From the IMG/VR virus record IMGVR_UViG_3300008267_000341, positions 1 to 24,884 of that record: a stretch of 24,884 nucleotides of DNA; one strand, written 5' to 3'. Below the pieces are notes generated by a model, which was given only the letters and a program-made list of their open reading frames with translations, was not told where the DNA came from and searched no databases. Position numbers and translations under genes: made by a program. The stretch is from a virus. The number at the start of each line of letters is the position of its first letter. Within the stretch, counting starts at the first letter, position 1. Of this stretch, positions 892 to 22,333 are shown piece after piece.

Positions 892-1413
892 ATGAAAATA
901 GGATTATGTGGCACAATGTCAGTTGGTAAAACAACGTTAGTTAAAGCGTTGGCTAAAACTGCTGAATTTAAAAACTATAAAACTGCTACTGAACGTAGCA
1001 AATACTTACGTGATTTAGGTATTCCATTAAACACTGATTCAACTGTTAATGGTCAATTTGTATTTTTAGCTGAACGAGCTAGTGAATTATTACATGAAAA
1101 TATATTAACAGATAGAACAATATGGGATGTATGTTCATTTACAATGTTAGCTAAATCTATTGGTACACATGACAAATCTCAGTTTGTTAATGCGGCAATG
1201 ACATTAAGAGAACAATATGATGTTGTATTCTATATTGAACCAGTTGGTGTAGAAATGGAAGATAATGGTGTAAGAGAAACAAATCTTGAATATAGAGCTG
1301 ATATTAATCAAGAAATATTGCGTTTATTATCATTATTTCCACCTAAAAAATTAGTAATATTACATGGTTCAACTAAAGATCGTGTAAAAACTGTATTAGA
1401 CGCTTTAAAATAA
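892..1413 (+). CDS. P-loop NTPase, NadR/deoxynucleotide-kinase-like (AAA_28 type)
   Basis: The protein opens with a Walker A motif GTMSVGKTT at residues 7-15 directly after a short beta strand (KIGLC). This layout is typical of small P-loop kinases. A second motif, ILTDRTIWDVCSF, near residues 71-83 has the D-R of nucleoside-kinase-like proteins, and VVFYIEPVGVE near residue 110 looks like the next core strand. The overall length (173 aa) suits a NadR-type or thymidylate/deoxynucleoside-kinase-like ATPase. The phosphate acceptor cannot be read from the sequence. In a phage it could serve nucleotide metabolism or NAD salvage. The start is the first ATG, 13 bases after an ATATTTATA element. Confidence 0.68.
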   Translation: MKIGLCGTMSVGKTTLVKALAKTAEFKNYKTATERSKYLRDLGIPLNTDSTVNGQFVFLAERASELLHENILTDRTIWDVCSFTMLAKSIGTHDKSQFVNAAMTLREQYDVVFYIEPVGVEMEDNGVRETNLEYRADINQEILRLLSLFPPKKLVILHGSTKDRVKTVLDALK

Positions 1414-1441: not shown

Positions 1442-2401
1442 ATGGCAGATTTCGATTACAAAAAGTTTATAACTGAGGCGAAGCTTAAAATTAAAGTTCC
1501 TGTAAAGGAAATGGCTCGTGTCGCTAAAGAAAAATATAAATTAAACCCAAACTTTCCAGAACTTAAAGATAGAATTAAAACTCCATCTAATTATAAGACA
1601 GATAGAAAACAACAAGTTATTAACTACTTTTTAGCTCAAGCTAAAGAACAAGGTATTAAACCTATGGATGTTGAGCTATTAAAAAGTGACATTGAGAAAA
1701 ATTCAGCTCCAGGTGTTAACTGGTCTTTCACTCCTGATATTCGTAATCAATTGTTACAAGCAACAACTGTAAAACCAGAAACTGCTCCTGATGAAGAAGA
1801 AGGTGGTTATTTTGGTGATTATGGTGATGCTGAAGATATGTTTATTGGTAAATCAAAACTTAAGGGTAGAAAAGCAATGGGTAAAGATGATGAAGAAGGC
1901 CCAACAGAAAAAGATTTAGCTAAACTTAAATTACCAAAAGCAACTCCATTAAACTCTAAAGTAGGAGATTTCTTTAATAGCTACTCAGGATTAATAGATA
2001 AAATTATTAAGAAGTACGCTACATCAACTATGAAAACAGGTCGTGTAGTTAAAGAAGCTGAAGACGGAGGAATGTCAAGTGCTGATTTTAAATCTGCTAA
2101 TCTTAAATCTAAAGAAGCAGCTAAAGAAGCATTACCTGAATTAATTGGTCAACTTGTAGATGCTCTTAAAGCATTAAAATCAGAAGATCAAGTAGCATAT
2201 GTTAAAGTATTAAATGATCTTGACAAATATAAGTTCACACCTACAAATACTAAGAATGTTCTTAAACAACTTCTTAAAGCATTAGATGAACCAACAATGC
2301 CTACAATAGCAGGTAAAAAGAAGAAAAGTGATGATGATGAATTAAAAGCTTTAGGAATTGATGATGAACCAATCAAATTAGACGGCGAAGAAGAAATTTA
2401 A
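1442..2401 (+). CDS. Hypothetical head-region protein with N-terminal capsid-targeting-like peptide
   Basis: I do not recognise this 319-aa protein as a family. The N-terminus MADFDYKKFITE|AKLKIK strongly resembles the T4 internal-protein capsid-targeting sequence (IPIII starts MKTYQEFIAE|A, from memory), which the gp21 protease cuts after I-x-E. Downstream are acidic and lysine-rich stretches: DEEEGG and DAED near residues 119-132, and KKKKSDDDE near residue 292. A helical Lys/Ala/Glu-rich middle follows, and the C-terminus is acidic (LDGEEEI). No transmembrane segment or enzyme motif is seen. The composition suits a prohead core or packaged internal protein. The gene ends 5 bases before the next ATG, so the two are co-transcribed. 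That it is a gene is sure; the head role is inference. Confidence 0.8.
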   Translation: MADFDYKKFITEAKLKIKVPVKEMARVAKEKYKLNPNFPELKDRIKTPSNYKTDRKQQVINYFLAQAKEQGIKPMDVELLKSDIEKNSAPGVNWSFTPDIRNQLLQATTVKPETAPDEEEGGYFGDYGDAEDMFIGKSKLKGRKAMGKDDEEGPTEKDLAKLKLPKATPLNSKVGDFFNSYSGLIDKIIKKYATSTMKTGRVVKEAEDGGMSSADFKSANLKSKEAAKEALPELIGQLVDALKALKSEDQVAYVKVLNDLDKYKFTPTNTKNVLKQLLKALDEPTMPTIAGKKKKSDDDELKALGIDDEPIKLDGEEEI

Positions 2402-2406
2402 ATATT

Positions 2407-3081
2407 ATGAAAAAATACATTTTACCAGTTATTTTACTTTTAATTGTGTTATGGTTTGCTTTTGATAAAGTAACTAACATTGGATTAACAAGTGAATTCA
2501 AAGCAAAACAAGATAGTTTAGTACATGCTGTTGATAGCATGCAATTAGTAATTGCTAAAGAAGATGCTGAAATAGATTCTTTAGATTTAGTAGCTGTTGA
2601 GTTACAATACAAAGTAGATCATCAAAAAGCAAAAGTAATTAAAATTGTTGAAACTATTGAAGTTGAAAAAAACAACATTGATTCTTATTCAGAACAAGAA
2701 CTAATTAGTTCACTTAATAAACATTATCCTAAAGATACAGTAACTAACCCATTACCTGTAGCACAACCAGTATTAGTGAGCGTTGCTAAGGATTTAGTAG
2801 AATTAGATGGTGCTAAACAAATTATAGTACTTAAGGATTCATCTATCAACACATTAGAAGAAAAAGTTACTGTTAAAGATAGTGTTATTGCTAAGTATGT
2901 TTCTAAGGAAAATACCTATAAAAACATGGTTGCTAATCAACAAACACAAATTAAAGATTGGAAATTCCAATATAATACATTACAATTAGAAAATACAAAA
3001 CTAAAAGCTAAAAATAAATTTACTAAAATTGGCGCTGGATTAATTACAGGCGGTTTAATTTATTTAATGCTAGCAAAATAA
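2407..3081 (+). CDS. Membrane-anchored coiled-coil protein, possible spanin-like lysis protein
   Basis: The 224-aa product begins KKYILPVILLLIVLWFAF, a strong uncleaved membrane segment at residues 3-19. It is followed by a long charged, heptad-rich region (about 30-95 and 140-205). A short hydrophobic Gly-rich tail (IGAGLITGGLIYLMLA, about 208-223) may be a second membrane contact. The middle contains LNKHYPKDT, followed by Val/Leu-rich periplasm-like sequence. N-anchored coiled coils of this size in Bacteroidota phages are often suspected inner-membrane spanins, but a C-terminal membrane segment is not typical of Rz. No holin or endolysin is adjacent. It is the last gene before a strong terminator. 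It could also be a structural or superinfection-exclusion membrane protein. Confidence 0.75.
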   Translation: MKKYILPVILLLIVLWFAFDKVTNIGLTSEFKAKQDSLVHAVDSMQLVIAKEDAEIDSLDLVAVELQYKVDHQKAKVIKIVETIEVEKNNIDSYSEQELISSLNKHYPKDTVTNPLPVAQPVLVSVAKDLVELDGAKQIIVLKDSSINTLEEKVTVKDSVIAKYVSKENTYKNMVANQQTQIKDWKFQYNTLQLENTKLKAKNKFTKIGAGLITGGLIYLMLAK

Positions 3082-3128
3082 TAGTACTTAACTGCATACC
3101 GTAAGATCTGCTCTAAGTCATTTGCCCC

Positions 3129-3150
3129 GCTATAGTCTCAGTATTATAGC
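3129..3150 (+). other. Small hairpin upstream of terminator
   Basis: GCTATA (3129-3134) pairs perfectly with TATAGC (3145-3150) around a 10-base loop. It is preceded by TGCCCC and followed five bases later by the terminator stem. A very similar arrangement occurs at 11833-11883, which suggests a composite 3'-end element. Confidence 0.5.
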
Positions 3151-3155
3151 TCTCT

Positions 3156-3185
3156 AACCTGCCCCCGTAAGGGCAGGTTTTTTTT
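3156..3185 (+). terminator. Rho-independent terminator
   Basis: A perfect 9-bp stem AACCTGCCC / GGGCAGGTT with loop CCGTAA is followed by eight T residues (3178-3185). It lies between the membrane protein gene and the large terminase gene, directly before an ATATTTATA element, so it separates two transcription units. Confidence 0.92.
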
Positions 3186-3187
3186 AT

Positions 3188-3196
3188 ATATTTATA
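3188..3196 (+). promoter_or_regulatory. ATATTTATA element before the terminase gene
   Basis: Exact ATATTTATA three bases after the T tract of the terminator and 13 bases before the terminase ATG. The terminator-then-motif order is the best positional argument that the motif is a promoter reading rightwards. Confidence 0.6.
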
Positions 3197-3209
3197 TACA
3201 ACAAAGTAT

Positions 3210-4799
3210 ATGAGTGAACAACAGAATATAAAGGATATAATTAAACAGGAATATGTTAAGTGCGCTACTGATCCTGTTTATTTCATGAAAAAATATTATT
3301 GGATACAACACCCACAACGTGGCCGTATCCAATTTAATTTATACCCATTCCAAGAGGGTGTATTACATCAATTAAAAAAGAATAAATACAGCATTGTAAA
3401 TAAGTCAAGACAATTAGGTATATCTACCTTATCTTCCGCTTATTCACTTTGGTTAATGCTATTCCAGAAAGATAAAAATATACTTTGTATCGCTACCAAG
3501 CAGGAAACCGCGAAAAACATGGTTACCAAAGTAAAATTTGCTTATGATAACTTACCTACTTGGTTACAATTAAAAGCAATAGAAAATAACAAATTAAGTC
3601 TAAAATTAAGTAACGGATCTCAAATTAAAGCAATTGGTGCGACAGGCGACGCAGGTAGATCTGAAGCTGTATCATTACTGTTACTAGATGAGGCCGCGTT
3701 TATTGAAGGTATAGATGAGATATTTGCTTCTGCTCAACAAACCTTAGCTACAGGAGGACAATGTATAGCCATTTCAACTCCATTTGGTACAGGTAACTGG
3801 TTCCATAGAACATTTATTGGAGGTGAAGAAGGTAAAAACGGATTTACATCAATAAAATTACCATGGACAGTACATCCAGAACGAACTCAAAAATGGAGAG
3901 ATGAACAAGATGCTATTTTAGGAGTTAGAAATGCTGCTCAAGAGTGTGACTGTGACTTTACAACTTCAGGTGATACAGTTGTTGAACCTGATATCTTAAA
4001 TTTCTATATTCAAACATATCAAGCAGATCCAATAGCTAAAGGAGGATTTGATGGTAATTTATGGCGTTGGGAATATCCTGACTACTCAAAAAACTATATT
4101 GTAGTGGCTGACGTTGCTCGTGGTGATGGTAAAGACTATTCTGCATGCCATGTTATTGATATTGAAAATGCTAAACAAGTAGAAGAATATAAAGGACAAC
4201 TTGGTACTAGAGACTACGGTCATTTATTAGTATCTATAGCTACCGAATGGAATAACGCCTTATTAGTGGTAGAAAACGCTAATATAGGTTGGGATACAAT
4301 ACAAACAATATTAGATAGAGGATACCAAAATGTTTATTACTCATCTAAATCAGATACTGCTAATATTACAATGGATAATTTTTTAAGCAGAAATGATAAT
4401 AACTTAGTGCCTGGATTTACAAACTCAACTAAAACAAGACCGCTTGTTATTTCAAAATTAGAAGCATACATGCGTGAACGAGCTTGTATTATACAATCAC
4501 GCCGCACATTAGAAGAATTAAGAACATTTGTTTGGAAACATGGTAAAGCTCAAGCCAATGATGGGTATAATGATGACCTTATAATGGCATTTGGTATTGG
4601 TATGTTCTTACGTGACACTGCTTTAAAGTTCTCTCAAACCGGTATGGACTTAACTCGAGCCTCACTTGGAGGTATAGGAAGAGTTTCGTATAATACCGGG
4701 CCAAGTAGCATGTACTCACCACATAGTCCTCAAAATTCCAACCCATGGCAAATGGATAATGGTGCAGGACAGATGGAAGACATTAGCTGGTTGGTATAA
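3210..4799 (+). CDS. terL: Terminase large subunit, T4 gp17-like (ATPase and nuclease)
   Basis: This is the motor that pumps DNA into the prohead through the portal and cuts concatemers. The ATPase domain has a Walker A SRQLGIST at residues 66-73, a form shared with T4 gp17 (SRQLGKTT). Walker B is LLLLDEAAF with D160 and E161, and the coupling motif is STPFGTGNWFH at 189-199. The nuclease domain shows the RNase H-like acidic set in order: D301 in VVADVARGDG, E355 in LLVVENAN, and D455/D456 in YNDDLIMAFG. These correspond to T4 D401, E458 and D542. At 529 aa it is shorter than T4 gp17 (610 aa), mainly at the N-terminus. The portal gene follows 30 bases later with its own motif. No small terminase (gp16) is visible nearby. 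Confidence 0.96.
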   Translation: MSEQQNIKDIIKQEYVKCATDPVYFMKKYYWIQHPQRGRIQFNLYPFQEGVLHQLKKNKYSIVNKSRQLGISTLSSAYSLWLMLFQKDKNILCIATKQETAKNMVTKVKFAYDNLPTWLQLKAIENNKLSLKLSNGSQIKAIGATGDAGRSEAVSLLLLDEAAFIEGIDEIFASAQQTLATGGQCIAISTPFGTGNWFHRTFIGGEEGKNGFTSIKLPWTVHPERTQKWRDEQDAILGVRNAAQECDCDFTTSGDTVVEPDILNFYIQTYQADPIAKGGFDGNLWRWEYPDYSKNYIVVADVARGDGKDYSACHVIDIENAKQVEEYKGQLGTRDYGHLLVSIATEWNNALLVVENANIGWDTIQTILDRGYQNVYYSSKSDTANITMDNFLSRNDNNLVPGFTNSTKTRPLVISKLEAYMRERACIIQSRRTLEELRTFVWKHGKAQANDGYNDDLIMAFGIGMFLRDTALKFSQTGMDLTRASLGGIGRVSYNTGPSSMYSPHSPQNSNPWQMDNGAGQMEDISWLV

Positions 4800-4804
4800 A
4801 ACAA

Positions 4805-4813
4805 ATATTTATA
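4805..4813 (+). promoter_or_regulatory. ATATTTATA element before the portal gene
   Basis: Exact ATATTTATA in the 30-base gap between terminase and portal genes, ending 16 bases before the portal ATG. Confidence 0.5.
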
Positions 4814-4829
4814 ACATATACAGAAAATT

Positions 4830-6719
4830 ATGGGATTATTTGACAATCTTAAACGATTATTCTCCTCAGATGTCGTTATTCGCAATGTAGGAGGTGATGA
4901 ATTAAGAGTAATAGATACAGATCGTATACAATCGTTAGGTACTTTACAAACTAATGCATTGGTTGATAGATTTACTAAAATCTACACTACATCTGGTGCT
5001 GGTATTTACAACGTTAACAACGTTTATAACTATCAAACATTAAGAGTACAACTTTATACAGACTATGAATCAATGGATACAGACGCTATTGTAGCATCTG
5101 CGTTAGATATCATTGCTGATGAGTGTACTTTAAAAAATGAGCATGGTGAAATGCTCCATATTCGTTCAGCAGACGAAAATATTCAAAAGATATTATACAA
5201 CTTATTTTACGATGTATTAAATATCGAATTCAACTTATGGAGTTGGGCTCGTAACATGTGTAAGTATGGTGATTTTTATCTTAAATTAGAAATTGCTGAA
5301 AAATTTGGTGTGTATAATGTAATACCATTCTCAGCTTATTCAATTATTAGAGAAGAAGGTACAGATATTAATAATCCTACTTATGTAAGATTTAAATATG
5401 ACCCAACAAGTGTATCTGGTATCACAACACCACAAACACAATACGCGTTAGGTACCGCTACAGCGGATATTTACTTTGAAAATTACGAAATGGCTCACTT
5501 CAGATTAATAAGTGACGTTAACTATTTACCTTATGGTAGAAGTTACCTAGAACCAGGCCGTAAGATATTTAAACAAATGGTTTTAATGGAAGATGCGATG
5601 TTGATTCATAGAATTGTTCGCGCTCCTGAAAAACGTATTTTCTATATGAACGTAGGTGCTATTCCTCCGAATGAGGTAGAAGCATTTATGCAAAAAACAG
5701 TACAAAAACTTAAAAAAGTACCTTATGTTGACCCACAAACCGGCCAATATAACTTGAAGTTCAATATGATGAACATGATGGAAGACTTTTACATTCCTGT
5801 AAGAGGTAATGACCAATCAACTCGTATTGAATCAGCAAAAGGTATGGAATATAACGGTATTGAAGACGTTGCTTACTTAAGAGATAAATTATTTGCTGCT
5901 CTTAAGATACCTAAAGCATTTATGGGTTATGAAAAAGATTTAACTGGTAAAGCCACATTAGCTGCCGAGGATATCAGATTCGCTCGTACAGTAGAACGTA
6001 TTCAACGTATATTATTGTCTGAATTAACTAAGATTGCATTAGTGCACTTATATAGTCAGGGATATGATGGTGAATCTTTAACTAACTTCGACTTATCATT
6101 AACTACACCATCTATCATTTATGATCAAGAACGTGTTAACTTAATGAAGGAAAAAGTTGAGTTAGCTAGCACTATTATGGAAAATAGTTTATTACCAACT
6201 GATTGGATCTATGATAATTTATTCCATTTCAGCGAAGATCAATATGATGAATATCGTGATTTAATAATAGAAGATAAGAAACGCCAATTTAGAGTAAATC
6301 AAATTGCAGAAGAAGGTAATGATCCAAACGAAAGTGGTCAAGTGTATGGTACACCATCACAATTAGCTACAGCTTATGGTAAAGGTAGAGGAGATGGTGA
6401 TGTTCCAACTGGATATGATGAGAAAAATCCAAATGAACCTGTACATCTTGTTGGTCGTCCTGAAAAATCTGCATCAAATATCAATCGCCAAGATAATGCA
6501 TTTGGTAAAGATCGTATAGGTGTTAAGACATACAGTACAGCAGGTGCTGACCAAGAAGATAGTTTAGCAAAAACACAATGGAAAGGTGGCTCACCATTAG
6601 CTTTAGAAACATATCTTAAAAATAAGAAAATGTTCGCTAACATTCCTGTAAATCGTAAAACAACATTATTTGAAAACGGTATGTTAGATGAAAACAACAT
6701 CCGTGAAGAAATTAAATAA
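4830..6719 (+). CDS. gp20: Portal protein, T4 gp20-like
   Basis: The portal forms the dodecameric ring at one capsid vertex, on which head assembly starts and through which gp17 packages DNA. The sequence matches the T4 portal family along most of its length. Examples are DAIVASALDIIADECT near residues 87-102, SWARNMCKYGDFYLKLE near 147-163, the E-G-R-K-I-F-K-Q-type stretch near 242-250, and VPYVDPQTGQYNLKFN with MMEDFYIPVRG before the clip and stem region. LRDKLFAALKIPKAFMGYE near 350-370 is also typical. Length is 629 aa against 524 in T4. The extra C-terminus, from about residue 500, is Gly/Asn-rich and low complexity. The end carries TTLFE|NGML, a possible prohead-protease-type site. Confidence 0.95.
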   Translation: MGLFDNLKRLFSSDVVIRNVGGDELRVIDTDRIQSLGTLQTNALVDRFTKIYTTSGAGIYNVNNVYNYQTLRVQLYTDYESMDTDAIVASALDIIADECTLKNEHGEMLHIRSADENIQKILYNLFYDVLNIEFNLWSWARNMCKYGDFYLKLEIAEKFGVYNVIPFSAYSIIREEGTDINNPTYVRFKYDPTSVSGITTPQTQYALGTATADIYFENYEMAHFRLISDVNYLPYGRSYLEPGRKIFKQMVLMEDAMLIHRIVRAPEKRIFYMNVGAIPPNEVEAFMQKTVQKLKKVPYVDPQTGQYNLKFNMMNMMEDFYIPVRGNDQSTRIESAKGMEYNGIEDVAYLRDKLFAALKIPKAFMGYEKDLTGKATLAAEDIRFARTVERIQRILLSELTKIALVHLYSQGYDGESLTNFDLSLTTPSIIYDQERVNLMKEKVELASTIMENSLLPTDWIYDNLFHFSEDQYDEYRDLIIEDKKRQFRVNQIAEEGNDPNESGQVYGTPSQLATAYGKGRGDGDVPTGYDEKNPNEPVHLVGRPEKSASNINRQDNAFGKDRIGVKTYSTAGADQEDSLAKTQWKGGSPLALETYLKNKKMFANIPVNRKTTLFENGMLDENNIREEIK

Positions 6720-6724
6720 ACTAC

Positions 6725-6733
6725 ATATTTATA
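6725..6733 (+). promoter_or_regulatory. ATATTTATA element
   Basis: Exact ATATTTATA six bases after the portal stop and 22 bases before the ATG of the 283-aa gene. Confidence 0.5.
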
Positions 6734-6755
6734 AGTAGTATCATCATACTAGACT

Positions 6756-7607
6756 ATGCGTATCAAACATAACAAATTTCGTAACACTGGTGTATTATTT
6801 GAGCTATTAGTGCGTCAAATAGCATCAGATACGTTGGCTAATGCCGATTCTAAAGCGGTAAAGATTGTAAAGAAATTTTTTCACAATAGTGAAATTGCAA
6901 AGGAACATAAACTTTACCATACAATCTTAACAGCCCCACGTTTAAGTGAGGGCAAAGCTGAGGCTTTAATTAATACTACTATTGATTTAGCTAAAAAATT
7001 AAACAAAGAAACATTACTTAAAGAAAAATACAATTTAATTAAGGAAGTTAAAAAACATTACAACCTTGAAAGTTTCTTTAAGTCAACTGTAAATAACTAT
7101 AAAGCATTAGCAGCCGCTTACACATTGTTTGAGGTAGCTATGGAAAGCAAGTTTGTTGAACCAAAACAAGTGGTGTTAAACAAGCTTACTTTAATGGAAC
7201 ATATCACTAAGAAAACATTAATTGAAGCAGCTGACACAGATGTTGCTCAAGCTTTATCTAAAGAAGATAAGAATGTACGTATCTTAGCATATAGAATGTT
7301 AATTGAGAAATTTAACAGTAAATATTCAACATTAAGTGACCGTCAAAAGTCAGTACTTAAGGAATTCATTAACAATATTTCTAATCCTGAACATCTTAAA
7401 ACATACATCAACGAGAACCTTAATAAAGTTAAAACTGAATTAAGCGATTTAATTAAACAAGTTGACGATAAGACAACTGAAATTAAATTAAACGAAGTTA
7501 TAACGTTGATTAAGCCGATTTCTAACAAGTCGTCTGTAAAAGATGATCATTTAGTAGCATTACTTCAATATCAGCAACTAGCTGAAGAAATCAAAAGAGT
7601 TAGTTAA
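6756..7607 (+). CDS. Conserved helical phage protein of unknown function (portal-adjacent)
   Basis: A 283-aa protein opening MRIKHNKFRNTGVLFELLVR. It is almost entirely predicted helix and rich in Lys, Leu, Glu and Asn, with no catalytic motif, membrane segment or signal peptide that I can see. I recall similar portal-adjacent proteins from uncultured T4-like phages, but not a function. Its place between gp20 and gp21 is where T4 encodes gp67 and gp68, small prohead core proteins, so a core or assembly-chaperone role is possible. The fit is positional only, as those T4 proteins are much shorter. The stop (TAA) is directly followed by the ATG of the next gene, so the two are translationally adjacent. 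Confidence 0.85.
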   Translation: MRIKHNKFRNTGVLFELLVRQIASDTLANADSKAVKIVKKFFHNSEIAKEHKLYHTILTAPRLSEGKAEALINTTIDLAKKLNKETLLKEKYNLIKEVKKHYNLESFFKSTVNNYKALAAAYTLFEVAMESKFVEPKQVVLNKLTLMEHITKKTLIEAADTDVAQALSKEDKNVRILAYRMLIEKFNSKYSTLSDRQKSVLKEFINNISNPEHLKTYINENLNKVKTELSDLIKQVDDKTTEIKLNEVITLIKPISNKSSVKDDHLVALLQYQQLAEEIKRVS

Positions 7608-9050
7608 ATGATACATGTCATTGAAAATAGAATCTTACAGGAGCAATTGCTACAAGAAGCTTTCTTAGATAGTGTTAAAGACTACGCTAAAGAAAAATAT
7701 AGTAAGGCAATTACTACAATCAATGACTGGAAAGATTTAGCTGTTGTTATGGGTAAAGTAATATCAGACCCAACAGTATTAAACCGTTTTGCTGATGATG
7801 TTTGGAAAAATTTCAAAGATAATACATTTAAAAAATTAACAGCTCTTTTACAAAAAATAGGTCTAAATGATTTAATCATTAAGATCAAATCTGTTGTTGA
7901 TAAAATCACTAATTTAGATGGCTGGAAAAAATTCTTAGCAGCTGCTGGAATTGGAGCTATGGTTAATTATGTAGTTGAAAAAATGACAGGACTTGCTCCA
8001 GATGCTATTAAAGTTTTTTTACAAAAATATGTGTCTGAAAAAGGTTTAGGAGAAATTTTATCTAAACTAACTGATTTTAAATCTTATGTAGGATGGTTAC
8101 AACCTATTATTAAAGGTGTTGACATGTTATATGATGTTTTGAAATCAAGTATTAATAGATTCAAATCACAAGCTAATCTTTTTACACAATCGATAAACTT
8201 GATAAAAAAAGAAGGTATGTCATCTAAAATAAAACTCAAAGAAAAATTAACTGCTAAGCTAAAACAAGAAATGTCTACAACAGGTACTGGTGCTTCTGTT
8301 ACTCCAGGAGTAGGTGCAGGTGTAGCTACAAAGTATGCTTTCGCTCCAAAAAAAGATGGTGATAAAATAGCTAAAGATTATATCAAGACATTTGGTGGTA
8401 AATTAGCTCCATCAGTTCCTAATCGTCCATCTAAAGCTATGGACTATAAAGAATTATGGGAAATAGAACGTGATCAAGAAGTAAAAATAACAAGTGGTCA
8501 ATATGCTGGTAATACAGCTATTGTTCATGATTTTGATTCTAAAAAAGATAATGCATCTGGTGATGATTGGGTTGATGTTTTAGTAGGTAGTAAAAAAGAA
8601 AAGAAAACAGTTAAAGCATCTGAGTTAAAACCATTAAAAGAAGAAATGACTGAAGATATGGATATATATGGTTCTTTAAAAGATATATTAGCAAAATTAG
8701 GTGCTGAAGAAGATGCAGTTGCTGTACTTATAAAAGCAGTTGAAATGGGCGCTCTTAAACCAAGTGACGCTGTAGCAATTGTTAAAAAAACAGTTAACTT
8801 ACAAGAAGGATACGCTCAATTTAGAAATGAAACTAAAATGAGATCTAAGCCTGATCAATTCCATCAGGCAGTTAAACAAGTAAAAAAGAAAGTAAACGAA
8901 ATTAATCGTTTATTTGAATATATGGATCGCTTAAAAACTGAGTTAAGTGAAGGTGAAGCAATAAAAAATAAAAAATACACCGATAACGCTATACATCAGA
9001 TTAAAGAAGAGACCAAAAAATTATTTTTTAAATCAATAAAATTAAAATAA
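7608..9050 (+). CDS. Head-region protein with KOW/SH3-like segment (function unknown)
   Basis: 480 aa. The N-terminus reads MIHVIENRILQE|QLLQE|AFLD, with two overlapping (I/L)xE sites of the type cut by T4-like prohead protease. Residues 20-220 are helical, with an Ala/Gly hydrophobic patch (KFLAAAGIGAMVNYVVEKM, about 108-126). A low-complexity linker (TGTGASVTPGVGAGVATKY, about 225-243) follows. Residues 288-342 look like a KOW/SH3 barrel: DQEVKITSGQYAGNTAIVHD, then WVDVLVGSKK and VKASELKPL. The C-terminus is a Lys-rich coiled coil. KOW folds bind nucleic acid or protein, which would suit a core or DNA-contacting head protein, but that is inference. The gene starts directly after the upstream stop and is followed two bases later by the next ATG. 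Confidence 0.85.
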   Translation: MIHVIENRILQEQLLQEAFLDSVKDYAKEKYSKAITTINDWKDLAVVMGKVISDPTVLNRFADDVWKNFKDNTFKKLTALLQKIGLNDLIIKIKSVVDKITNLDGWKKFLAAAGIGAMVNYVVEKMTGLAPDAIKVFLQKYVSEKGLGEILSKLTDFKSYVGWLQPIIKGVDMLYDVLKSSINRFKSQANLFTQSINLIKKEGMSSKIKLKEKLTAKLKQEMSTTGTGASVTPGVGAGVATKYAFAPKKDGDKIAKDYIKTFGGKLAPSVPNRPSKAMDYKELWEIERDQEVKITSGQYAGNTAIVHDFDSKKDNASGDDWVDVLVGSKKEKKTVKASELKPLKEEMTEDMDIYGSLKDILAKLGAEEDAVAVLIKAVEMGALKPSDAVAIVKKTVNLQEGYAQFRNETKMRSKPDQFHQAVKQVKKKVNEINRLFEYMDRLKTELSEGEAIKNKKYTDNAIHQIKEETKKLFFKSIKLK

Positions 9051-9052
9051 AA

Positions 9053-9532
9053 ATGGCAGATAATTTTGATATGAAGCAATTCCTAATGGAAAATAAATTA
9101 GGTGCTTATTCTAGATTAAAAGAAAATGAAGAACAATTAAATGAGTATGAAGTTACATACGAATATGGTTCAGACGGAGGATGTTATAGAGTAGACGATG
9201 AAGGTAACTACGATGAAGTAGATGACAGCATGTGTAAAAAATATGCTGGTCAAGGTGTACGTGAAGAAAAAGAAGAAACAAAGGAAGACATGGGTAAAGA
9301 TCTTGAAGATACTGAAGCAGCAAAACAAATGGATTTCTTAGCTGAAAAAGATAAAGTTAAAGAAGCTTTAACACCAGAAATGTTTGAACGCATGGATGCT
9401 TTAACAAGTCATAATGCTCAAATCGCAATGATTAAAGCAGCAGAAATCATGATGAATGAATTAACTGAAGAAGGATTTGAAGTACTAGACATTAGAGAAT
9501 ACTTTACACAATTAATCGCAAACGATATCTAA
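9053..9532 (+). CDS. Acidic head-region protein with N-terminal cleavage-type peptide
   Basis: A 159-aa acidic protein. Its N-terminus MADNFDMKQFLME|NKLG parallels that of the 319-aa protein starting at 1442 (MADFDYKKFITE|AKL) and fits an L-x-E prohead-protease site after residue 13. The middle is very acidic (YDEVDDSMCKKY, then REEKEETKEDMGKDLED). The C-terminal half is helical (PEMFERMDALTSHNAQIAMI). Size, acidity and place between portal and gp21 are reminiscent of T4 core proteins such as gp67, but no clear homology is seen. Two Cys residues flank the acidic segment (in GGCYRVDD and SMCKKY). Translationally close to both neighbours. Confidence 0.82.
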   Translation: MADNFDMKQFLMENKLGAYSRLKENEEQLNEYEVTYEYGSDGGCYRVDDEGNYDEVDDSMCKKYAGQGVREEKEETKEDMGKDLEDTEAAKQMDFLAEKDKVKEALTPEMFERMDALTSHNAQIAMIKAAEIMMNELTEEGFEVLDIREYFTQLIANDI

Positions 9533-9533
9533 T

Positions 9534-9671
9534 ATGGCAAAGGCAAAGTCAGCGGGTAACAGTCAAAAAACAACTTTTGGCAAACGCAAAACAGGACCAG
9601 GTTCTGGACAAAAATCATTTAATAAACATACTCCTAAGCCAAAAACATACCGTGGACAAGGTAGAAGTTAA
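9534..9671 (+). CDS. Very small basic protein (45 aa)
   Basis: ATG at 9534, one base after the stop of the acidic protein, runs for 45 codons to TAA at 9669-9671. The product begins MAKAKSAGNSQKTTFGKRKT and continues with GPGSGQKSF, NKHTPKPK and TYRGQGRS. It is strongly basic (many Lys and Arg, no Asp or Glu), Gly/Ser-rich and probably disordered. The tight one-base spacing, the fully open frame and the distinctive composition support a real gene. I have the impression that similar short basic proteins accompany capsid operons of related phages, without known function. It could bind DNA or neutralise the acidic core inside the prohead. The stop overlaps the next ATATTTATA element by one base. 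Confidence 0.72.
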   Translation: MAKAKSAGNSQKTTFGKRKTGPGSGQKSFNKHTPKPKTYRGQGRS

Positions 9672-9679
9672 TATTTATA
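9671..9679 (+). promoter_or_regulatory. ATATTTATA element only 3 bases before an ATG
   Basis: Exact ATATTTATA overlapping the final base of the 45-codon gene's stop and ending three bases before the ATG at 9683. This spacing leaves no room for a normal promoter-to-start leader, so here the element may serve another purpose or the mRNA may be leaderless. Confidence 0.35.
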
Positions 9680-9682
9680 CAT

Positions 9683-11209
9683 ATGAAACAACCAATTAAC
9701 GAAATAGAAAGACTTAAACTTATAGCAGGTTTAATTAATGAAGTTGATTATAATGACGCTGTTTACGGTGTTAATAGAAAAACAACATTAACTGAAGCTA
9801 AACAAGAAAAAACATTACATATTGATGTAGCTAATCCATTTGAATTCCGTCATGGTTTACAATATGAATTAGATCAAATGAATGATTATAGTGATGAAGC
9901 TTTAGAAAAAGCTAAAGTTAAGGTATTAAAAAATCTAACTAAAGATGCTAATTTTTATTTCAACTTATTAAACCAACAACCAACTGGATTTGAATTCAAA
10001 GCACCTGAAACCGATGCTCCAGGTATGCAAGCTAACGCTGACGGTACTTTGAAAAAAGGTGCTGGTAAGTTAGAAAAATCAAATGTTAAAGATAATCTAG
10101 GTAAGTCAGAAGCAGCTAAAGGAAAACCTAAAGATGTTAAAGAATTAACAGATAAAGGTGTTGAAGGTAAAGAAAAAGTAGTTAAAGAAGGTGTTGAAGA
10201 AGCTAAAAAATTAGTATCTAAAGAAGATAAAATAGCTGTAATTAAAGAATGGATTTGGTATACTTGTGATGAAGGAACAAAAACCGAAGATATGGACAAG
10301 TATAACAAAATGGTTGATATATACTTCGCTGATAAAGAAGATGTAACTAAAGAAGATTTTAAAAAAATCTGGAATAAAGTTACTGAAAAATATGGTGTGG
10401 GTGATGTAAGTGCTGATTGGGATGCGTTTCCTGAAACATGGAAAGATGTTCAAACAGGTACTTTAGTTAATGAAACTGAAAAAACTATCAAAGAAAGTGA
10501 AGACAAATTAAATGAAGAATTCAAATACTTTGATAACTACGAAGAATTTGAAAATACATTATTTCAATTATATCCTCAAGTTAAAGCTAATCCTGAAAAA
10601 TATAAAAAAGAAAGACCTAATGGTGAAGTTGGATATAGTGATGGATATGTAAATTGGGCATCATGGAATCCAAATCGTCCACAATCTCCATCAGGATTAC
10701 CTCCAGGAGCTGTTAACATGAATAATAAATTAAGTTACAGTGATCTTATCTATCCTCCAGGTTCAAGAATGGATGAAGATAATATGGAATCAAATCCAGC
10801 AAATGGTGATTCAAGCGTTGAAGGTCAATTTAACCAATTAATGTCTAAATATGATTGGTACCATGAAATGAGTGATGATCCTAGAAAATGGGATATGGGC
10901 TCTACAATTGACCAAAAATTAAAATCATTAGCTAAAACAATTGGCATTGATAGAGCAGTTGAATTATTTAATGATAAAGCCCCATCAGATAGAAAAGTAA
11001 CAACTACTTTCTTTGCTGAAGGTGCTGAAGGTAAAGATAAACACGCTAAGATAAAAGAAACATTAAAGAAAGGTTTAAAAGAATTAATATCAACAGCTGA
11101 TATTCAAGCTGCTAAATTAACAGGTAAACCAGTTAATGTATCTAAATCAAACAAACAAGATATTACAGCTTTACAAACTGCTAAGGCTAATTTTACAACA
11201 TATGAGTAA
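9683..11209 (+). CDS. Large hypothetical head-region protein upstream of prohead protease
   Basis: 508 aa, not assigned to a known family. The N-terminus MKQPINEIERLKLIAGLINE continues to a TTLTE|AK sequence at residues 34-40. Both LINE and LTE fit the (I/L)xE cleavage rule. A stretch near residues 48-65 (DVANPFEFRHGLQYELDQM) is the most conserved-looking segment. After it comes a Lys/Glu-rich low-complexity region (about 120-180). Two D/Y/W-rich stretches follow (about 190-255 and 285-345), with SASWNP-like aromatic and Pro/Gly content. No membrane or enzyme motif is seen. The last 8 bases overlap the start of gp21, pointing to coupled translation. A structural or core role is plausible from position only. 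Confidence 0.85.
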   Translation: MKQPINEIERLKLIAGLINEVDYNDAVYGVNRKTTLTEAKQEKTLHIDVANPFEFRHGLQYELDQMNDYSDEALEKAKVKVLKNLTKDANFYFNLLNQQPTGFEFKAPETDAPGMQANADGTLKKGAGKLEKSNVKDNLGKSEAAKGKPKDVKELTDKGVEGKEKVVKEGVEEAKKLVSKEDKIAVIKEWIWYTCDEGTKTEDMDKYNKMVDIYFADKEDVTKEDFKKIWNKVTEKYGVGDVSADWDAFPETWKDVQTGTLVNETEKTIKESEDKLNEEFKYFDNYEEFENTLFQLYPQVKANPEKYKKERPNGEVGYSDGYVNWASWNPNRPQSPSGLPPGAVNMNNKLSYSDLIYPPGSRMDEDNMESNPANGDSSVEGQFNQLMSKYDWYHEMSDDPRKWDMGSTIDQKLKSLAKTIGIDRAVELFNDKAPSDRKVTTTFFAEGAEGKDKHAKIKETLKKGLKELISTADIQAAKLTGKPVNVSKSNKQDITALQTAKANFTTYE

Positions 11210-11831
11210 GCAAGTATTAATAGAATATTTTTCATTCAAACCTTCGCCTCGTTCTATAAACGAGGCAAAGTTGTCTACATCTAAAAACTTAATAGTTTCT
11301 GGAGTTGTACAACGTGCTGATGCTAAAAATCAAAACGGTAGAGTTTATCCTAAAGAAACATTAGAACGTGAAGTTGAAAAATACATGGCTGGACCTATAG
11401 CTGAAAATAGAGCATTAGGTGAATTAGACCATCCAGATTCTTCTATTATTAACTTAAAGAATGTATGTCATAACATCACACGTTTATGGTGGGATGGTGA
11501 TGATTTAATGGGTGATATTGAAGTATTACCTACACCAAGTGGTAATATATTAAAAGAATTATTTATTAATAATATAACTGTAGGTATTTCATCTCGTGGT
11601 ATGGGCTCAGTTCGTCCATTAGGTGAAGGTACAGTAGAAGTACAAGATGACTTCGAATTATTATGTTGGGATTTCGTATCTACACCATCAACACAAGGTG
11701 CATTTATGAAACCAGTTGGATTAAATGAAAACTTTACACCAACCTTATTTAAAGGTAACAAATACGTTAAAGTAAATAATTTAATCTCAGAAATTATCTG
11801 TTCTCAAACAGGAATTTGTTGTATAAAATAG
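11202..11831 (+). CDS. gp21: Prohead core protease, T4 gp21-like
   Basis: A serine protease that matures the prohead by degrading the scaffold and trimming the capsid protein. The signature is a His motif GELDHP (H77) and, 53-54 residues later, GISSRGMGS (S130/S131), close to the T4 spacing (H85, S140). LCWDFVSTPSTQGAFMKPVG near residues 154-173 is the typical distal part. I place the start at ATG 11202, giving 209 aa. An in-frame upstream ATG at 11136 would add 22 residues entirely inside the preceding gene. SINE|A at residues 18-22 and GLNE|N at 173-177 are candidate self-cleavage sites at both ends, as known for T4 gp21. A terminator follows. Confidence 0.95.
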   Translation: MSKQVLIEYFSFKPSPRSINEAKLSTSKNLIVSGVVQRADAKNQNGRVYPKETLEREVEKYMAGPIAENRALGELDHPDSSIINLKNVCHNITRLWWDGDDLMGDIEVLPTPSGNILKELFINNITVGISSRGMGSVRPLGEGTVEVQDDFELLCWDFVSTPSTQGAFMKPVGLNENFTPTLFKGNKYVKVNNLISEIICSQTGICCIK

Positions 11832-12022: not shown

Positions 12023-13174
12023 ATGACAAATCAAGAATTGTTCAAACAAGCGATTGCTGACGCTAAATCTGTCCGCGACGCTGCAGTAGCAAATGCTAAA
12101 GCCGCTCTTGAAGAAACTTTTACTCCAAAAATCATGTCTATGCTTTCAGCTAAATTAAACGAGCTAGAAGAAGATATGGAAGAAGGAAAAGAAGTTGAAA
12201 AAGAAGGTCACAGCAAAGAAGAAGGTATGGAAACCTCTCAAAATTATGAGGCTGGTCAACAAAAACCTGAAGAAAGTTATGGTCTAGAAGAAACTGATCT
12301 TGACGAAATCTTAGCACAACTTGAAGCTGAAGAAAAAGGCAAACAAGAAGAAGGCAAAGAAGAAGTTGAGGAAGGTAAAAAAGAAGTGGAAGAAGCTAAA
12401 AAAGAAGAAGAAAGCAAAAAAGTTGAAGAATCTTTAACTGTAGAAGCTGACGATGAATCTGAAGAAGCTGATGAAACTGAAGATGATGACGCTGAAGAAG
12501 CTGAATCAGAAGGTGACGATGAAGTTACCGAATTAACTGTTGACGAATTAAAAGACATCATCCGTGACGTATTAAAAGACGTTTTAGCTAGTGACGAAAC
12601 TGGCGGTGAAGAATCTGGTGAAGAATTAGATTTAACTGCTGTTGGTGACGAAGCTGGTGCTGATGAAGAAGAAATTGAAGATGATTCTATTAGCTTAGAA
12701 GAACTTTTAGCTGAACTTGATAAAGAAGATGACGCTAAAAAAGTAGAAGAAGCTAAAGAAGAAGTTGAAGAAGGCAAAAAAGAAGTTGAAGAAGCTAAGA
12801 AAGAAGAAGTAGAAGAAGCTAAGAAAGACTTAGAAGAAGCTATTAAAACTATCAAAGCTTTACAAGTTGAATTAAACGAAGTAAACTTATTGAACGCTAA
12901 ATTACTTTACACTAACAAAATCTTCAAATCTAAGTCTTTAAATGAAGCTCAAAAAGTTAAAGTATTAAAAACTCTTGATAAAGCGGTTAACGTTAAAGAA
13001 GCTAAAGCTATTTTTGAAACTTTAAGCGAAACTTTAAACAGTAAAACTAAATCAAGTATTAAAGAATCAGTTGGATTTGCTTCTAAAGCAGTAGGTGTTG
13101 CACCTTCACAACCGATTGTAGAAGGCGATTCTGCTATTCGTCGTATGCAACAATTAGCGGGAATTATTAAATAA
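12023..13174 (+). CDS. gp22: Prohead core scaffolding protein, T4 gp22-like
   Basis: Main internal scaffold around which gp23 assembles, later degraded by gp21. The 383-aa product begins MTNQELFKQAIADAKSVRDA and has a helical N-terminus with ETFTPKIMSMLSAKLNELEE (about 36-55). A very acidic Glu/Lys coiled-coil middle follows (residues about 55-285). The C-terminal helical part ends with IRRMQQLAGIIK. The position (immediately before gp23, after gp21), the composition and the start region agree with the scaffold of T4-like phages. T4 gp22 is 269 aa. The extra length is largely the Glu/Lys region, which contains a duplicated stretch (12356-12414 and 12755-12813). It shares a transcript with gp23, which starts 17 bases later. 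Confidence 0.88.
   Translation: MTNQELFKQAIADAKSVRDAAVANAKAALEETFTPKIMSMLSAKLNELEEDMEEGKEVEKEGHSKEEGMETSQNYEAGQQKPEESYGLEETDLDEILAQLEAEEKGKQEEGKEEVEEGKKEVEEAKKEEESKKVEESLTVEADDESEEADETEDDDAEEAESEGDDEVTELTVDELKDIIRDVLKDVLASDETGGEESGEELDLTAVGDEAGADEEEIEDDSISLEELLAELDKEDDAKKVEEAKEEVEEGKKEVEEAKKEEVEEAKKDLEEAIKTIKALQVELNEVNLLNAKLLYTNKIFKSKSLNEAQKVKVLKTLDKAVNVKEAKAIFETLSETLNSKTKSSIKESVGFASKAVGVAPSQPIVEGDSAIRRMQQLAGIIK
12356..12414 (+). repeat. Scaffold Glu/Lys repeat, copy 1
   Basis: Encodes KEEVEEGKKEVEEAKKEE. A near-identical copy lies 399 bases downstream, in frame (133 residues). The differences are mostly silent third-position changes, suggesting selection on the coiled-coil charge pattern. 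Confidence 0.75.
12755..12813 (+). repeat. Scaffold Glu/Lys repeat, copy 2
   Basis: Second copy of the KEEVEEGKKEVEEAKKEE-coding stretch. It continues into a further VEEAKKDLEEA partial repeat, extending the charged helix. Confidence 0.75.
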
Positions 13175-13191
13175 AAACAATTATTATTAAA

Positions 13192-14850
13192 ATGAGTGCA
13201 GTACAATCATTAATCGAATCTGCTAACCCATGGCAGTCACAGCAATCAGACGCAGCACGTCTTGCTAAAAAATGGGAAAAATCAGGTTTGTTAGAAGGTC
13301 TTAATGACTACAACAAATCAAACATGGCTATGATGTTAGAAAATCAAGCTAAACAATTAGTAGTTGAACAATCACAAACTGGTACTGGCGGTACATTCGC
13401 TCCAGGTACAGGTGAGCAATGGGCAGGCGTAGCTTTACCATTAGTTCGTAAGGTGTTTGGTCAAATCGCTGCTAAAGAATTCGTTTCAGTACAACCAATG
13501 AGCTTACCAGCTGGTTTAGTATTCTTCTTAGATTTCCAATATGGAACAGGTAAGAATCCTTTCTCTGCAGGTGATTCATTATATGGTACAAAAACACAAG
13601 TTGGTGATTCAGGATTTGGTAACGCAGCTTCTGGTGGTCTTTATGGCGCTGGTCGTTTCGGTTATTCAATCAACCAATTCTCTAGCTCAGTTACTGTAAC
13701 TACAGCTTCTGATGTTACTTCAGCTTCTTTTGCTCAAGTTAACTTCGATTCTAACTACTCTTCTTCAGTTGTAGGTGGTACAGATGCTGCTTTATTAACA
13801 GTTAAAGCTATCACAATCGCTACTTCTTCTATCAGTTCTTCTTTAGATCCAAACGCAGTTAGAGCTATCTCTATCATTTCTGGTTCTATCGCTGAAGCTG
13901 ATAACTTACACCAATTCAACTACATCAGTGGTGGTAACGTAGTATTATTCGTTTCTGCTTCTTCAGCTGAAGTTGCAGGTCCTACATGTGTTGCTACAGT
14001 ATTCTACAACAAGAAGACTGCTGATAACGCTCGTGGTGATTACGAAGATGGTGCAGCATATTCTAGCAACGTTGGTAACACAACTTCTCCTAGCATTGCT
14101 ATCCCAGAAATCAACGTACAATTACGTTCTGAAACTATTGCTGCTAAAACTCGTAAGTTAAAAGCACAATGGACTCCAGAATTTGCACAAGATTTAAACG
14201 CTTATCAAAATTTAGATGCTGAAGCTGAATTAACTTCTATGTTATCTGAGTACATTTCTTTAGAAATCGACTTAGAAATCTTAGATATGTTAATTGAAAA
14301 TGCTCCAATCACTGAGTTTTGGTCAGCAAAAGTTGGTAACCAAATCTCTAATAACACAGTTACAAACAACGTATCTGGTGTTTATTACACTCAAATGACT
14401 TGGTTCCAAACTATTGGTATTAAGTTACAAAAAGTATCTAATACAATCCACCAAAGAACTTTACGTGGTGGCGCTAACTTTATGGTAGTATCTCCAACTA
14501 TCGCTACAGTCTTAGAATCAATTCCAGGATTTGCTGCTGATACAGACGGAGCTGCTGACAACATGAAGTATGCTTTTGGTGTACAAAAGATCGGTGCTTT
14601 AAATAGCCGTTATAAGGTTTACAAAAACCCTTACATGTTAGAAAACACTATCTTAATGGGCTTCCGTGGTAACCAATTCTTAGAAACTGGTGCCGTTTAT
14701 GCTCCTTATGTTCCATTGATCATGACTCCATTAGTTTACGATCCAGCTACCTTCACTCCAAGAAAAGGTATCATGACTCGTTACGCTAAGAAAATGGTAC
14801 GTCCTGAATTCTATGGTAAAGTAGTTGTTGCTGACTTAAACGTTATCTAA
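13192..14850 (+). CDS. gp23: Major capsid protein, T4 gp23-like
   Basis: HK97-fold shell protein, 552 aa (T4 gp23: 521). Family stretches include LPLVRKVFGQIAAKEFVSVQ, then PMSLPAGLVFFLDFQYG (about 80-115), IPEINVQLRSETIAAKTRKL with KAQWTPEFAQDLNAYQNLDA (about 303-342), and the C-terminus MTPLVYDPATFTPRKGIMTR with YAKKMVRPEFYGKVVVADL. T4 gp23 loses its first 65 residues to gp21. Here LVVE|Q at residues 56-60 is a candidate site by position, though V before the variable residue is not the ideal (I/L)xE. A Ser/Ala/Val-rich insertion at about 163-285 corresponds to the variable insertion region of gp23. Codons ending in C (ATC, AAC, TTC) are noticeably more frequent than in neighbours, as expected for a highly expressed gene. 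Confidence 0.97.
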   Translation: MSAVQSLIESANPWQSQQSDAARLAKKWEKSGLLEGLNDYNKSNMAMMLENQAKQLVVEQSQTGTGGTFAPGTGEQWAGVALPLVRKVFGQIAAKEFVSVQPMSLPAGLVFFLDFQYGTGKNPFSAGDSLYGTKTQVGDSGFGNAASGGLYGAGRFGYSINQFSSSVTVTTASDVTSASFAQVNFDSNYSSSVVGGTDAALLTVKAITIATSSISSSLDPNAVRAISIISGSIAEADNLHQFNYISGGNVVLFVSASSAEVAGPTCVATVFYNKKTADNARGDYEDGAAYSSNVGNTTSPSIAIPEINVQLRSETIAAKTRKLKAQWTPEFAQDLNAYQNLDAEAELTSMLSEYISLEIDLEILDMLIENAPITEFWSAKVGNQISNNTVTNNVSGVYYTQMTWFQTIGIKLQKVSNTIHQRTLRGGANFMVVSPTIATVLESIPGFAADTDGAADNMKYAFGVQKIGALNSRYKVYKNPYMLENTILMGFRGNQFLETGAVYAPYVPLIMTPLVYDPATFTPRKGIMTRYAKKMVRPEFYGKVVVADLNVI

Positions 14851-18123: not shown

Positions 18124-19065
18124 ATGACATTTGTATTACCAACCCTACCAACCCCTAGTAGGACACCGATTCCTAGTAAGACACCAATTCCTAGTAGAAC
18201 ACCTAGTATAACACCTTCAAAAAGTGCAACACCATCTATATCTGTTTCAAGAACACCTTCAGTATCAATTACTGCGACACCTTCTGTAACACCAACAATA
18301 AGCATAACACCAACACCAAGTAAATCATTAGGAGCATCTCCTCCAGCTACTCCATCTATAACACCTTCTGTAACACCATCTGTTTCTATATCTGTTACTC
18401 CAACAGTGACACCTACAATAACAACAACACCAACAATTACAGTAAGTATAACACCAACAGTAACTAAAACTCCTACAGCTACAATAAGTGTGACACCTAC
18501 TATAACAGTATCAATAACACCAACTAAATCACCTTCCATTACACCATCACCATCTCCTTCTCCAGATTGTAGTCAATTAGGCCTATTTGCTCAAATGCAA
18601 CAAGCTGCTTTGCAGTTTATGAAAACAGATATTGCTTATTACAAGTATAACTTATATCAAACTAAGAGAAATATATATGGTGAATCATTAGAAAAATGGT
18701 ATTATCAACCATTCTTAGTTAAAACTACTATTGAAAGAAGTGAAGATGTAATTGTAAGTGAAATGTTTGGTCCTGATGTAGAAAAATCAATTACATGTAC
18801 TATACCAAAAGTAGCTTGGGAACAAGGAAACGCAGGATTAATTGAAGGTAAAAATGTGTTACCTGAAATTGGTGATATAATTTTTGATCGCTCAACAGAA
18901 AGATATTATGAAGTAAATAATATAATAAGTGATTACACCCCTATTAATGCTAATATTGGTATAGGACAGTCAAATTGCCCTCAAGCTGAATTAGTGACAT
19001 ATAATTTAAAATGTCATCAAACAAGAGCTTCAAAACTTAATTTATTACCTTATAAATTATTATAA
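18124..19065 (+). CDS. gp14: gp14-like neck protein with N-terminal Thr/Ser/Pro-rich arm
   Basis: 313 aa in two parts. Residues 7-147 are almost only Thr, Ser, Pro, Val, Ile and a few Lys/Arg (units such as TPS, TPT, SVTP, SITP), mucin-like and probably extended. Residues 150-313 resemble T4 gp14: an early helix FAQMQQAALQFMKTDIAYYK, a middle EKSITCTIPKVAWEQ, and LPEIGDIIFDRSTERYYEVN, which parallels T4's KEGDLIYFPMDNSLFEI. gp14 joins gp13 on the head to complete the neck. T4 gp14 (256 aa) has no such arm, so the arm is an extra, perhaps exposed at the neck or a glycosylation or adhesion target (inference). The stop shares one base with the next start (TAATG), implying coupled translation. 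Confidence 0.65.
   Translation: MTFVLPTLPTPSRTPIPSKTPIPSRTPSITPSKSATPSISVSRTPSVSITATPSVTPTISITPTPSKSLGASPPATPSITPSVTPSVSISVTPTVTPTITTTPTITVSITPTVTKTPTATISVTPTITVSITPTKSPSITPSPSPSPDCSQLGLFAQMQQAALQFMKTDIAYYKYNLYQTKRNIYGESLEKWYYQPFLVKTTIERSEDVIVSEMFGPDVEKSITCTIPKVAWEQGNAGLIEGKNVLPEIGDIIFDRSTERYYEVNNIISDYTPINANIGIGQSNCPQAELVTYNLKCHQTRASKLNLLPYKLL
18136..18566 (+). repeat. Low-complexity ACA/CCT-rich coding repeat (Thr/Ser/Pro arm)
   Basis: Irregular tandem short units coding TPS/TPT/SVTP/SITP over about 430 bases. The base sequence varies more than the protein does (aca/act, cct/cca), so the amino-acid pattern appears to be under selection. The units could shorten or lengthen by slippage or recombination. 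Confidence 0.75.
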
Positions 19066-22018: not shown

Positions 22019-22035
22019 TAAAAACAAAATAGGTT

Positions 22036-22236
22036 ATGGCTTTTACAGCAGGAAATATCACAAATAAAGATATAACGAAGGGGCCTAGCGATAGCGCCCC
22101 TTCTATTAATTTATCTAAATCAGAAGTAGAGACTCTACTTGTTATGATAAAAGAATCTCATTTTAAGGGAGAACATGTACAAAAAGTGTATGAGCTTGTT
22201 TTAAAGCTTCAAGAATATTACACTAAACTACCCTAA
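22036..22236 (+). CDS. Small hypothetical protein (66 aa)
   Basis: 66 aa: MAFTAGNITNKDITKGPSDS, then APSINLSKSEVETLLVMIKE and a helical, Lys/Glu-rich C-terminus (VQKVYELVLKLQEYYTKLP). The second half looks like a single amphipathic helical hairpin. No family is recognised. It is sandwiched between two WKKVIVSGS fibre genes, so it may be a fibre assembly helper or small structural protein. Codons 15-23 are covered by a very stable RNA hairpin (22077-22103), which is unusual so near a start. The start has an A-rich leader and no Shine-Dalgarno. Confidence 0.7.
   Translation: MAFTAGNITNKDITKGPSDSAPSINLSKSEVETLLVMIKESHFKGEHVQKVYELVLKLQEYYTKLP
22077..22103 (+). other. Stable intragenic hairpin with GCGA tetraloop
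   Basis: GAAGGGGC (22077-22084) pairs perfectly with GCCCCTTC (22096-22103). Inside, CTA (22085-22087) pairs with TAG (22092-22094) around a GCGA (GNRA) loop, with one bulged C at 22095. This gives 11 pairs in a GC-rich stem within an AT-rich gene. No T tract follows (ttctattaattta). It may be an attenuator, processing site or translation brake. Confidence 0.65.
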
Positions 22237-22239
22237 TTC

Positions 22240-22248
22240 ATATTTATA
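22240..22248 (+). promoter_or_regulatory. ATATTTATA element upstream of the structured leader
   Basis: Exact ATATTTATA four bases after the stop of the 66-aa gene and 85 bases before the next ATG. Together with 14908-14924 it shares the extended 17-mer catatttatattaaaca. Confidence 0.55.
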
Positions 22249-22257
22249 TTAAACAAG

Positions 22258-22317: not shown

Positions 22318-22333
22318 GTAAAAAGTAACAGAT

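Follow-up and report, generated by a model that had tools for sequence, protein, structure and literature searches.

The capsid-targeting sequence (CTS) of phage T4 has been known since 1996, although we know of no description of how it docks on the core and of few cargo proteins with known function. What the T4 internal proteins have in common is only a leader, by which they are packed into the head (PMC3012670, PMC9026906, PMC12373910); in IPIII, residues 4 and 7 set targeting and residues 8 and 10 processing, and the cargo protein Alt is an injected ADP-ribosyltransferase (PMC9026906). In phage P1, the N-terminal 30 residues of DarB suffice to package a reporter (PMC9024508). Here, the viral record IMGVR_UViG_3300008267_000341 of a T4-like phage (24,884 bases, henceforth called the window) was analysed for short N-terminal leaders on the products of three genes starting at positions 1442, 9053, and 9683. 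These leaders are very probably (at roughly 0.86) T4-type CTSs that are removed by the phage's own prohead protease gp21, and that are carried by core and cargo proteins. The following features of the three genes were delimited:

1442..1477, plus strand: leader A of the 319-residue product, MADFDYKKFITE then A; gp21 cut predicted after E12.
1478..2401, plus strand: body of the 1442 product; the terminase lies two genes downstream.
9053..9091, plus strand: leader A of the 159-residue product, MADNFDMKQFLME then N; cut predicted after E13.
9092..9532, plus strand: body of the 9053 product, between portal and gp21.
9683..9742, plus strand: leader D of the 508-residue product, MKQPINEIERLKLIAGLINE then V; cut predicted after E20; resembles the scaffold C-terminus.
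9743..9796, plus strand: region with a second conserved site, TTLTE (E38) then A, in the 9683 product.
9797..11209, plus strand: body of the 9683 product; homologues stand behind several leaders.

As in T4 IPI, IPII, IPIII, and Alt, a short N-terminal leader ending in aromatic/aliphatic-I/L-x-E (FITE, FLME, and LINE in the window) precedes unrelated bodies in a genome with T4-like head genes. Unlike the T4 internal proteins, whose leader is of one family, the phage group has several leader families that replace one another on homologous bodies, a far larger number of carriers, a leader matching the scaffold C-terminus, and internal second leaders in fused open reading frames (ORFs); packaging is predicted here. 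P1 DarB is likewise targeted to the capsid by its N-terminus, but the Dar proteins yielded no consensus and have no shared short leader (PMC9024508). In phage SPN3US, head proteins are cut by the prohead protease and gp53 and gp54 have diverged with identical N-termini, but several propeptides exceed 100 residues, as opposed to the 12–20 residues here (PMC5694885). The polymorphism of T-even internal proteins (Repoila et al. 1994, as cited in PMC12373910) also combines variable cargo with a constant leader through which the genes were found; at least 10 internal proteins are reported there (PMC12373910), compared to more than 100 body clusters here, in another phage group. The kind of system is itself known; what is new is its extent, the use of several leaders that can be interchanged, the match of leader D with the scaffold tail, and the occurrence of fused forms. 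An earlier report of these leaders was not found in the open-access literature (most subscription papers were outside the search).

Four leader families were distinguished, i.e., leader A (MxNFDLKK[FY]LxE), leader B (M-x-K-L-x-x-[LI]-L-x-E), leader C (MKKSELKQLIKE), and leader D (MKKPINEIKRMQxLAGIITE). A short N-terminal peptide is common to otherwise unrelated proteins of one phage both in the window (1442 and 9053) and in Flavobacterium phage immuto, in which at least four proteins carry leader A (gp003, gp076, gp077, and gp092). Homologous bodies were found behind different leaders. Relatives of the 9053 body occur behind leader A (L014) or leader D (L026), with homology between the two (E = 2e-25) beginning where the leader ends, and another pair with leader A (L071) and leader D (L220) is homologous from about residue 41–45 (E = 4e-34). 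Bodies or body parts of the 9683 type are preceded in relatives by leader D, leader A, or another leader (MTTLELYRKHKSGEISREKFLYEVRRD), a zeta-toxin-like kinase of the phage group by leader A, B, or C, and the WHHFKVKAPYYKK body by leader A or B. The alternative leaders on the zeta-toxin-like and the A/B-swapped bodies were not pattern-selected, and most of them end in hydrophobic-x-E. Moreover, five relatives (L222, L235, L257, L262, L320) encode a gp077-like protein, an internal Met-leader (residues 329–423), and a further body in one ORF, the immuto counterpart of which consists of two adjacent genes, gp077 and gp076; the fused product is possibly a polyprotein cut by gp21.

Viral contigs were scanned with a DNA pattern for leader A (F[DN]-hydrophobic-KK[FY]-aliphatic-x-E-x-K-aliphatic), which yielded at least about 137 matches, nearly all of them no more than six residues from a start codon. 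Among the first 90 viral matches listed, 86 lay 2–6 residues after a methionine and three of the other four followed GTG- or TTG-like starts; the later matches listed were likewise N-terminal, except for a few chance matches in very short ORFs. In 257 Gb of cellular genomes, the same pattern gave 15 matches, of which only four were N-terminal, all on phage-like contigs and one of these also encoding an S77 protease. Using a somewhat looser form of the leader, 230 class A proteins fell into 106 body clusters. Many genomes carry two or three leader A genes in tandem. Leaders within one genome had a mean identity of 78% at the amino-acid and 80% at the DNA level, with a quarter of the identical residues using different codons, and the two leader A copies of the window are 58% identical as protein and 50% as DNA, with six of their seven shared residues coded differently. 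Because shared leader residues are often coded by different codons, the comparison indicates that the peptide is kept, rather than that the DNA was recently copied. Among 50,697 phage records, only immuto genomes were matched by queries with leaders A and D, and neither a leader variant with KYLAEGKL nor the 1442 protein (tblastn) had a match.

The position of the predicted processing site was determined in immuto, eight relatives chosen by gp21 or 1442 similarity (i.e., blind to leaders), and the window, comprising 530 body families. Against a baseline of 3.8 ± 2.0 at each residue position, hydrophobic-[ILVM]-x-E sites, which stand at the leader end, peaked at E10 (26.7), E12 (19.1), E13 (9.5), and E19 (10.5) (analysis repeated). 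The E10 peak corresponds to class B (MIKLIDLLNE, then the cut) and to the position in T4 IPII/IPIII (MKTYQEFIAE, then A); T4 gp24 (MAKINELLRE, then S) is also in this register. Class B fits the T4 targeting and processing positions exactly (hydrophobic residues 4, 7, and 8; E10), with offsets of two to three residues for class A and of about ten for class D. Two Cellulophaga phages outside the group had no register peak, based on only 99 families. As separate observations, the product of T4 gene 2 (gp2, DNA end protector; L325:26061-26885, minus strand) starts with MAIFQIINE then S, fitting the leader pattern, and in L162:1031-6025 (minus strand) consecutive class B genes nearly all start with MIKL(I/A/T)xILxE then YK(I/V)N in front of otherwise different bodies, making this block a candidate cargo hotspot.

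Leader D, in the form RMQxLAGIITE (then S), matches the scaffold C-terminal RRMQQLAGIIK, a peptide present in 64/65 scaffold relatives. Of the occurrences of the motif [RK][MLI][QK]x[LI]AG, 57 are near N-termini, 41 near the C-terminus, and seven elsewhere. Most proteins with the motif at the C-terminus are scaffolds (66 in one cluster), but they also include three 1442 relatives (L058, L059, L161), which have leader A at the start and a scaffold-like M-K-Y-Y-A-G-I-I-K at the C-terminal end, and three leader-bearing proteins (L239, L292, L174). A site of the type [ILVM]xE lies within 12 residues before the scaffold peptide in 62/64 cases, compared to 64% of random windows of the same glutamate-rich proteins. 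We infer that the shared peptide would be a docking element usable at either end of a protein, with the cut site on the body side. More speculatively, leader D may dock by copying the scaffold C-terminal peptide; the identity of the two provides a direct, testable docking hypothesis.

The window encodes terminase, gp20 portal, gp21, scaffold, and gp23-like major capsid protein (MCP) in the order of a T4-like head module, and leader genes are placed both within this operon and in a slot before the terminase. Up to the MCP, the genes follow one another as P-loop kinase (892), leader gene (1442), membrane-anchored coiled-coil-like protein (2407), terminase (3210), portal (4830), 6756, 7608, leader gene (9053), small basic protein (9534), leader gene (9683), gp21 (11202), scaffold (12023), and MCP (13192). 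The features outside the leader genes that bear on targeting and processing are:

892..1413, plus strand: P-loop kinase-like gene, a near-constant neighbour that marks the leader-gene slot before the terminase.
4830..6719, plus strand: portal (gp20), PF07230 E = 5e-66; C-terminal LFE (E615 of 629) conserved.
7608..9050, plus strand: 480-residue product with N-terminal ILQE/LLQE; weak candidate.
11202..11831, plus strand: gp21 prohead protease (Peptidase S77), PF03420 E = 5e-29; PHROG 207.
12023..13174, plus strand: scaffold/core protein, gp22-like by position and composition, directly upstream of the MCP.
13139..13171, plus strand: scaffold C-terminal peptide RRMQQLAGIIK, matching leader D.
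13192..13368, plus strand: MCP propeptide; its end, KQLVVE (E59), aligns with FLTE, the cleavage site of T4 gp23.

The portal and gp21 identities are secure on the domain matches. The first ATG of the gp21 ORF is at 11136, but as gp21 proteins of relatives begin with MSKQ, the start is most likely at 11202. Two N-terminal sites of gp21, VLIE (E8) and SINE (E21, then A), are conserved and possibly serve for autocleavage; T4 gp21 carries LIE-9 (PMC9026906). At the MCP, the variants LVVE, IVSE, and LISE align with T4 FLTE (then A), i.e., the L/I-x-E rule is kept. Leader and S77 protease are encoded in the same genome in the window and in 12/20 large leader-tagged records, including all three above 150 kb and a 104-kb cell-bin contig on which the leader occurs twice. 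The MCP gene of immuto is 80% identical to that of the window over 438 bases, and because of this match the host of the window phage is probably a member of the Bacteroidota.

An earlier note on this stretch, made from its letters, had proposed that T4-like capsid-targeting leaders are present on several unassigned proteins and are trimmed by the phage's own gp21. All peptides that it quoted were located in the sequence, and the proposal is strongly supported by the N-terminal position, the unrelated bodies, the leader swaps, the T4 register, the co-occurrence with S77, and the L/I-x-E site of the MCP. Two of its examples fared less well. The 7608 product does have ILQE then Q (E12) and LLQE then A (E17), but few relatives share this N-terminus and its reading as a leader is weak; TTLFE then N at the portal C-terminus is present with its LFE conserved, but T4 gp20 is uncleaved (PMC9026906), which makes cleavage there a weak reading. 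The GLNE then N of gp21 was also confirmed as a peptide.

In the proposed mechanism, the first 12–20 residues of the 1442, 9053, and 9683 products would bring each protein into the scaffold core during prohead assembly. The phage's gp21 would then cut after the glutamate of hydrophobic-[I/L]-x-E and free the mature protein inside the head, where it would remain as a core remnant or from which it would leave with the DNA by ejection. Targeting, cleavage, packaging, and ejection of the leader-bearing proteins are what we infer from these patterns. Several points weigh against this reading: leader A exceeds the T4 CTS in length by two to three residues; Mel-JY01, the gp21 of which is 53% identical, has no strong leader peak; 8/20 tagged records had no gp21, gp23, gp19, or terminase match, which says little, as all of them are fragments below 100 kb; alignments A1 and A3 consist of pattern hits, and as the selecting patterns require the glutamate, its conservation there is partly by construction; and the open-access literature held no virion proteomics or N-terminal data for these phages. 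In addition, the loose motif [ILV]xE within the first 22 residues was at expectation in immuto (23 observed, 23.9 expected), and therefore proves little by itself, while 35 were observed in T4 with 21 expected.

The immuto count is what would be anticipated if AT-rich, glutamate-rich proteins simply yielded (I/L)xE often. As an explanation of the specific leaders, which are far above chance by N-terminal position, register peaks, and leader swaps, such coincidence is hardly credible and is refuted by these data, whereas it stands for the 7608 product and the portal C-terminus. Improbable, though somewhat better founded, is that the leaders are never removed and act as docking peptides in head or tail assembly, with the conserved glutamate used for binding: the sequence of leader D recurs as an extreme C-terminal peptide for which docking is itself a plausible role, and leader cleavage is a prediction. 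However, the L/I-x-E rule agrees with that of T4 gp21 and with the MCP cleavage site, and the internal leaders of the fused ORFs make most sense if they are cut. Many carriers lie outside the head operon, as they would if the leaders addressed a membrane, a replication compartment, or a chaperone, or tuned translation starts, with no link to the head. We regard this as very unlikely, since leader D equals the scaffold C-terminus, head-operon genes carry leaders, some 1442 relatives combine leader A at one end with a scaffold-like peptide at the other, and shared leader residues are often coded differently, so that the peptide and not the DNA is kept.

Under the preferred reading, i.e., CTSs removed by gp21, the system would be modular, with a few interchangeable leader families serving well over a hundred unrelated bodies, among them enzymes such as kinases and ADP-ribosyltransferase-like proteins. 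The wide distribution of such tags in the relatives suggests that a large variety of proteins is injected into the hosts. For a full cargo-loading code of T4-like phages of Bacteroidota, in which swappable leaders (one copying the scaffold tail so that cargo docks at the scaffold-tail site) and gp21 cutting at either end load more than 100 injected families, including zeta-type kinases and ADP-ribosyltransferases, we see an even chance. Most leader-bearing bodies had no family match; those with a family comprised zeta toxin (E = 1e-16), HD domain, GNAT, ParB_N, Tox-ART-HYD1 (E = 6e-4), and a weak PARP match. The ADP-ribosyltransferase-like cargo is an obvious parallel to T4 Alt. A PDB sequence search with the PARP-like protein (L240) gave nothing useful, and PADLOC returned only scattered and weak matches on the bodies. 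In phage genomes that lack annotation, the leaders may serve as a search handle for candidate injected proteins (counter-defence, host takeover) beyond the reach of homology search, and the new leader types could help to load proteins into the heads of phages from other lineages.

A family search assigned none of the 1442, 7608, 9053, and 9683 products to a known family. The earlier note placed the 1442 gene outside the head operon and regarded its product as a candidate for an ejected internal protein; the gene is in fact near the head genes, two genes upstream of the terminase, in a slot where most relatives likewise have leader-bearing genes, the bodies of which often differ. The leader of the 1442 product is a typical one. 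The 1442 body is strongly conserved and syntenic among relatives. The expectation of a conserved leader on a diverged body holds between families but fails inside the 1442 family, in which the mean frequency of the commonest residue was 0.86 (residues 1–16), 0.88 (17–40), and 0.73 (rest). The gene may encode either a core protein or a conserved protein that is ejected (effector); because of the high conservation and the constant slot, a core protein fits as well as an ejected effector. An AlphaFold model of the protein was of low confidence (mean predicted local distance difference test (pLDDT) 62, predicted template modelling score (pTM) 0.35), with a separate leader helix (residues 6–12) followed by a disordered part (14–28); at these values the model was too weak for a fold search.

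Some further features were recorded. Zeta-toxin-like kinases also occur, with T4-like N-termini, in two other T4-like phages, Pelagibacter phage HTVC008M (gp129, starting with MIPFILKE then G; L334:8562-9224) and Methylophilales phage Melnitz (118, MKTFAELQE then G; L331:1483-2151). A body resembling the annotation "high potential iron-sulfur protein" carries leader A or B (L195:3166-3723, minus strand; L328:5656-6390), and its relative in Actinomycetia phage DSL-LC01 directly precedes the capsid maturation protease. In the window, the conserved protein at 2407-3081 has one N-terminal membrane helix and a coiled-coil-like body, and lies between leader gene and terminase in many relatives. In the structural region after the MCP, the product of 18124-19065 has long Ser/Thr/Pro-rich repeats (SITPTPSKS-like) in its N-terminal half. 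Two products within 21026-24304 share M(A/P)xWKKVIVSGSxAxLN starts as well as SGSFSGSFSG or SGSLNISGS repeats, resembling fibre proteins.

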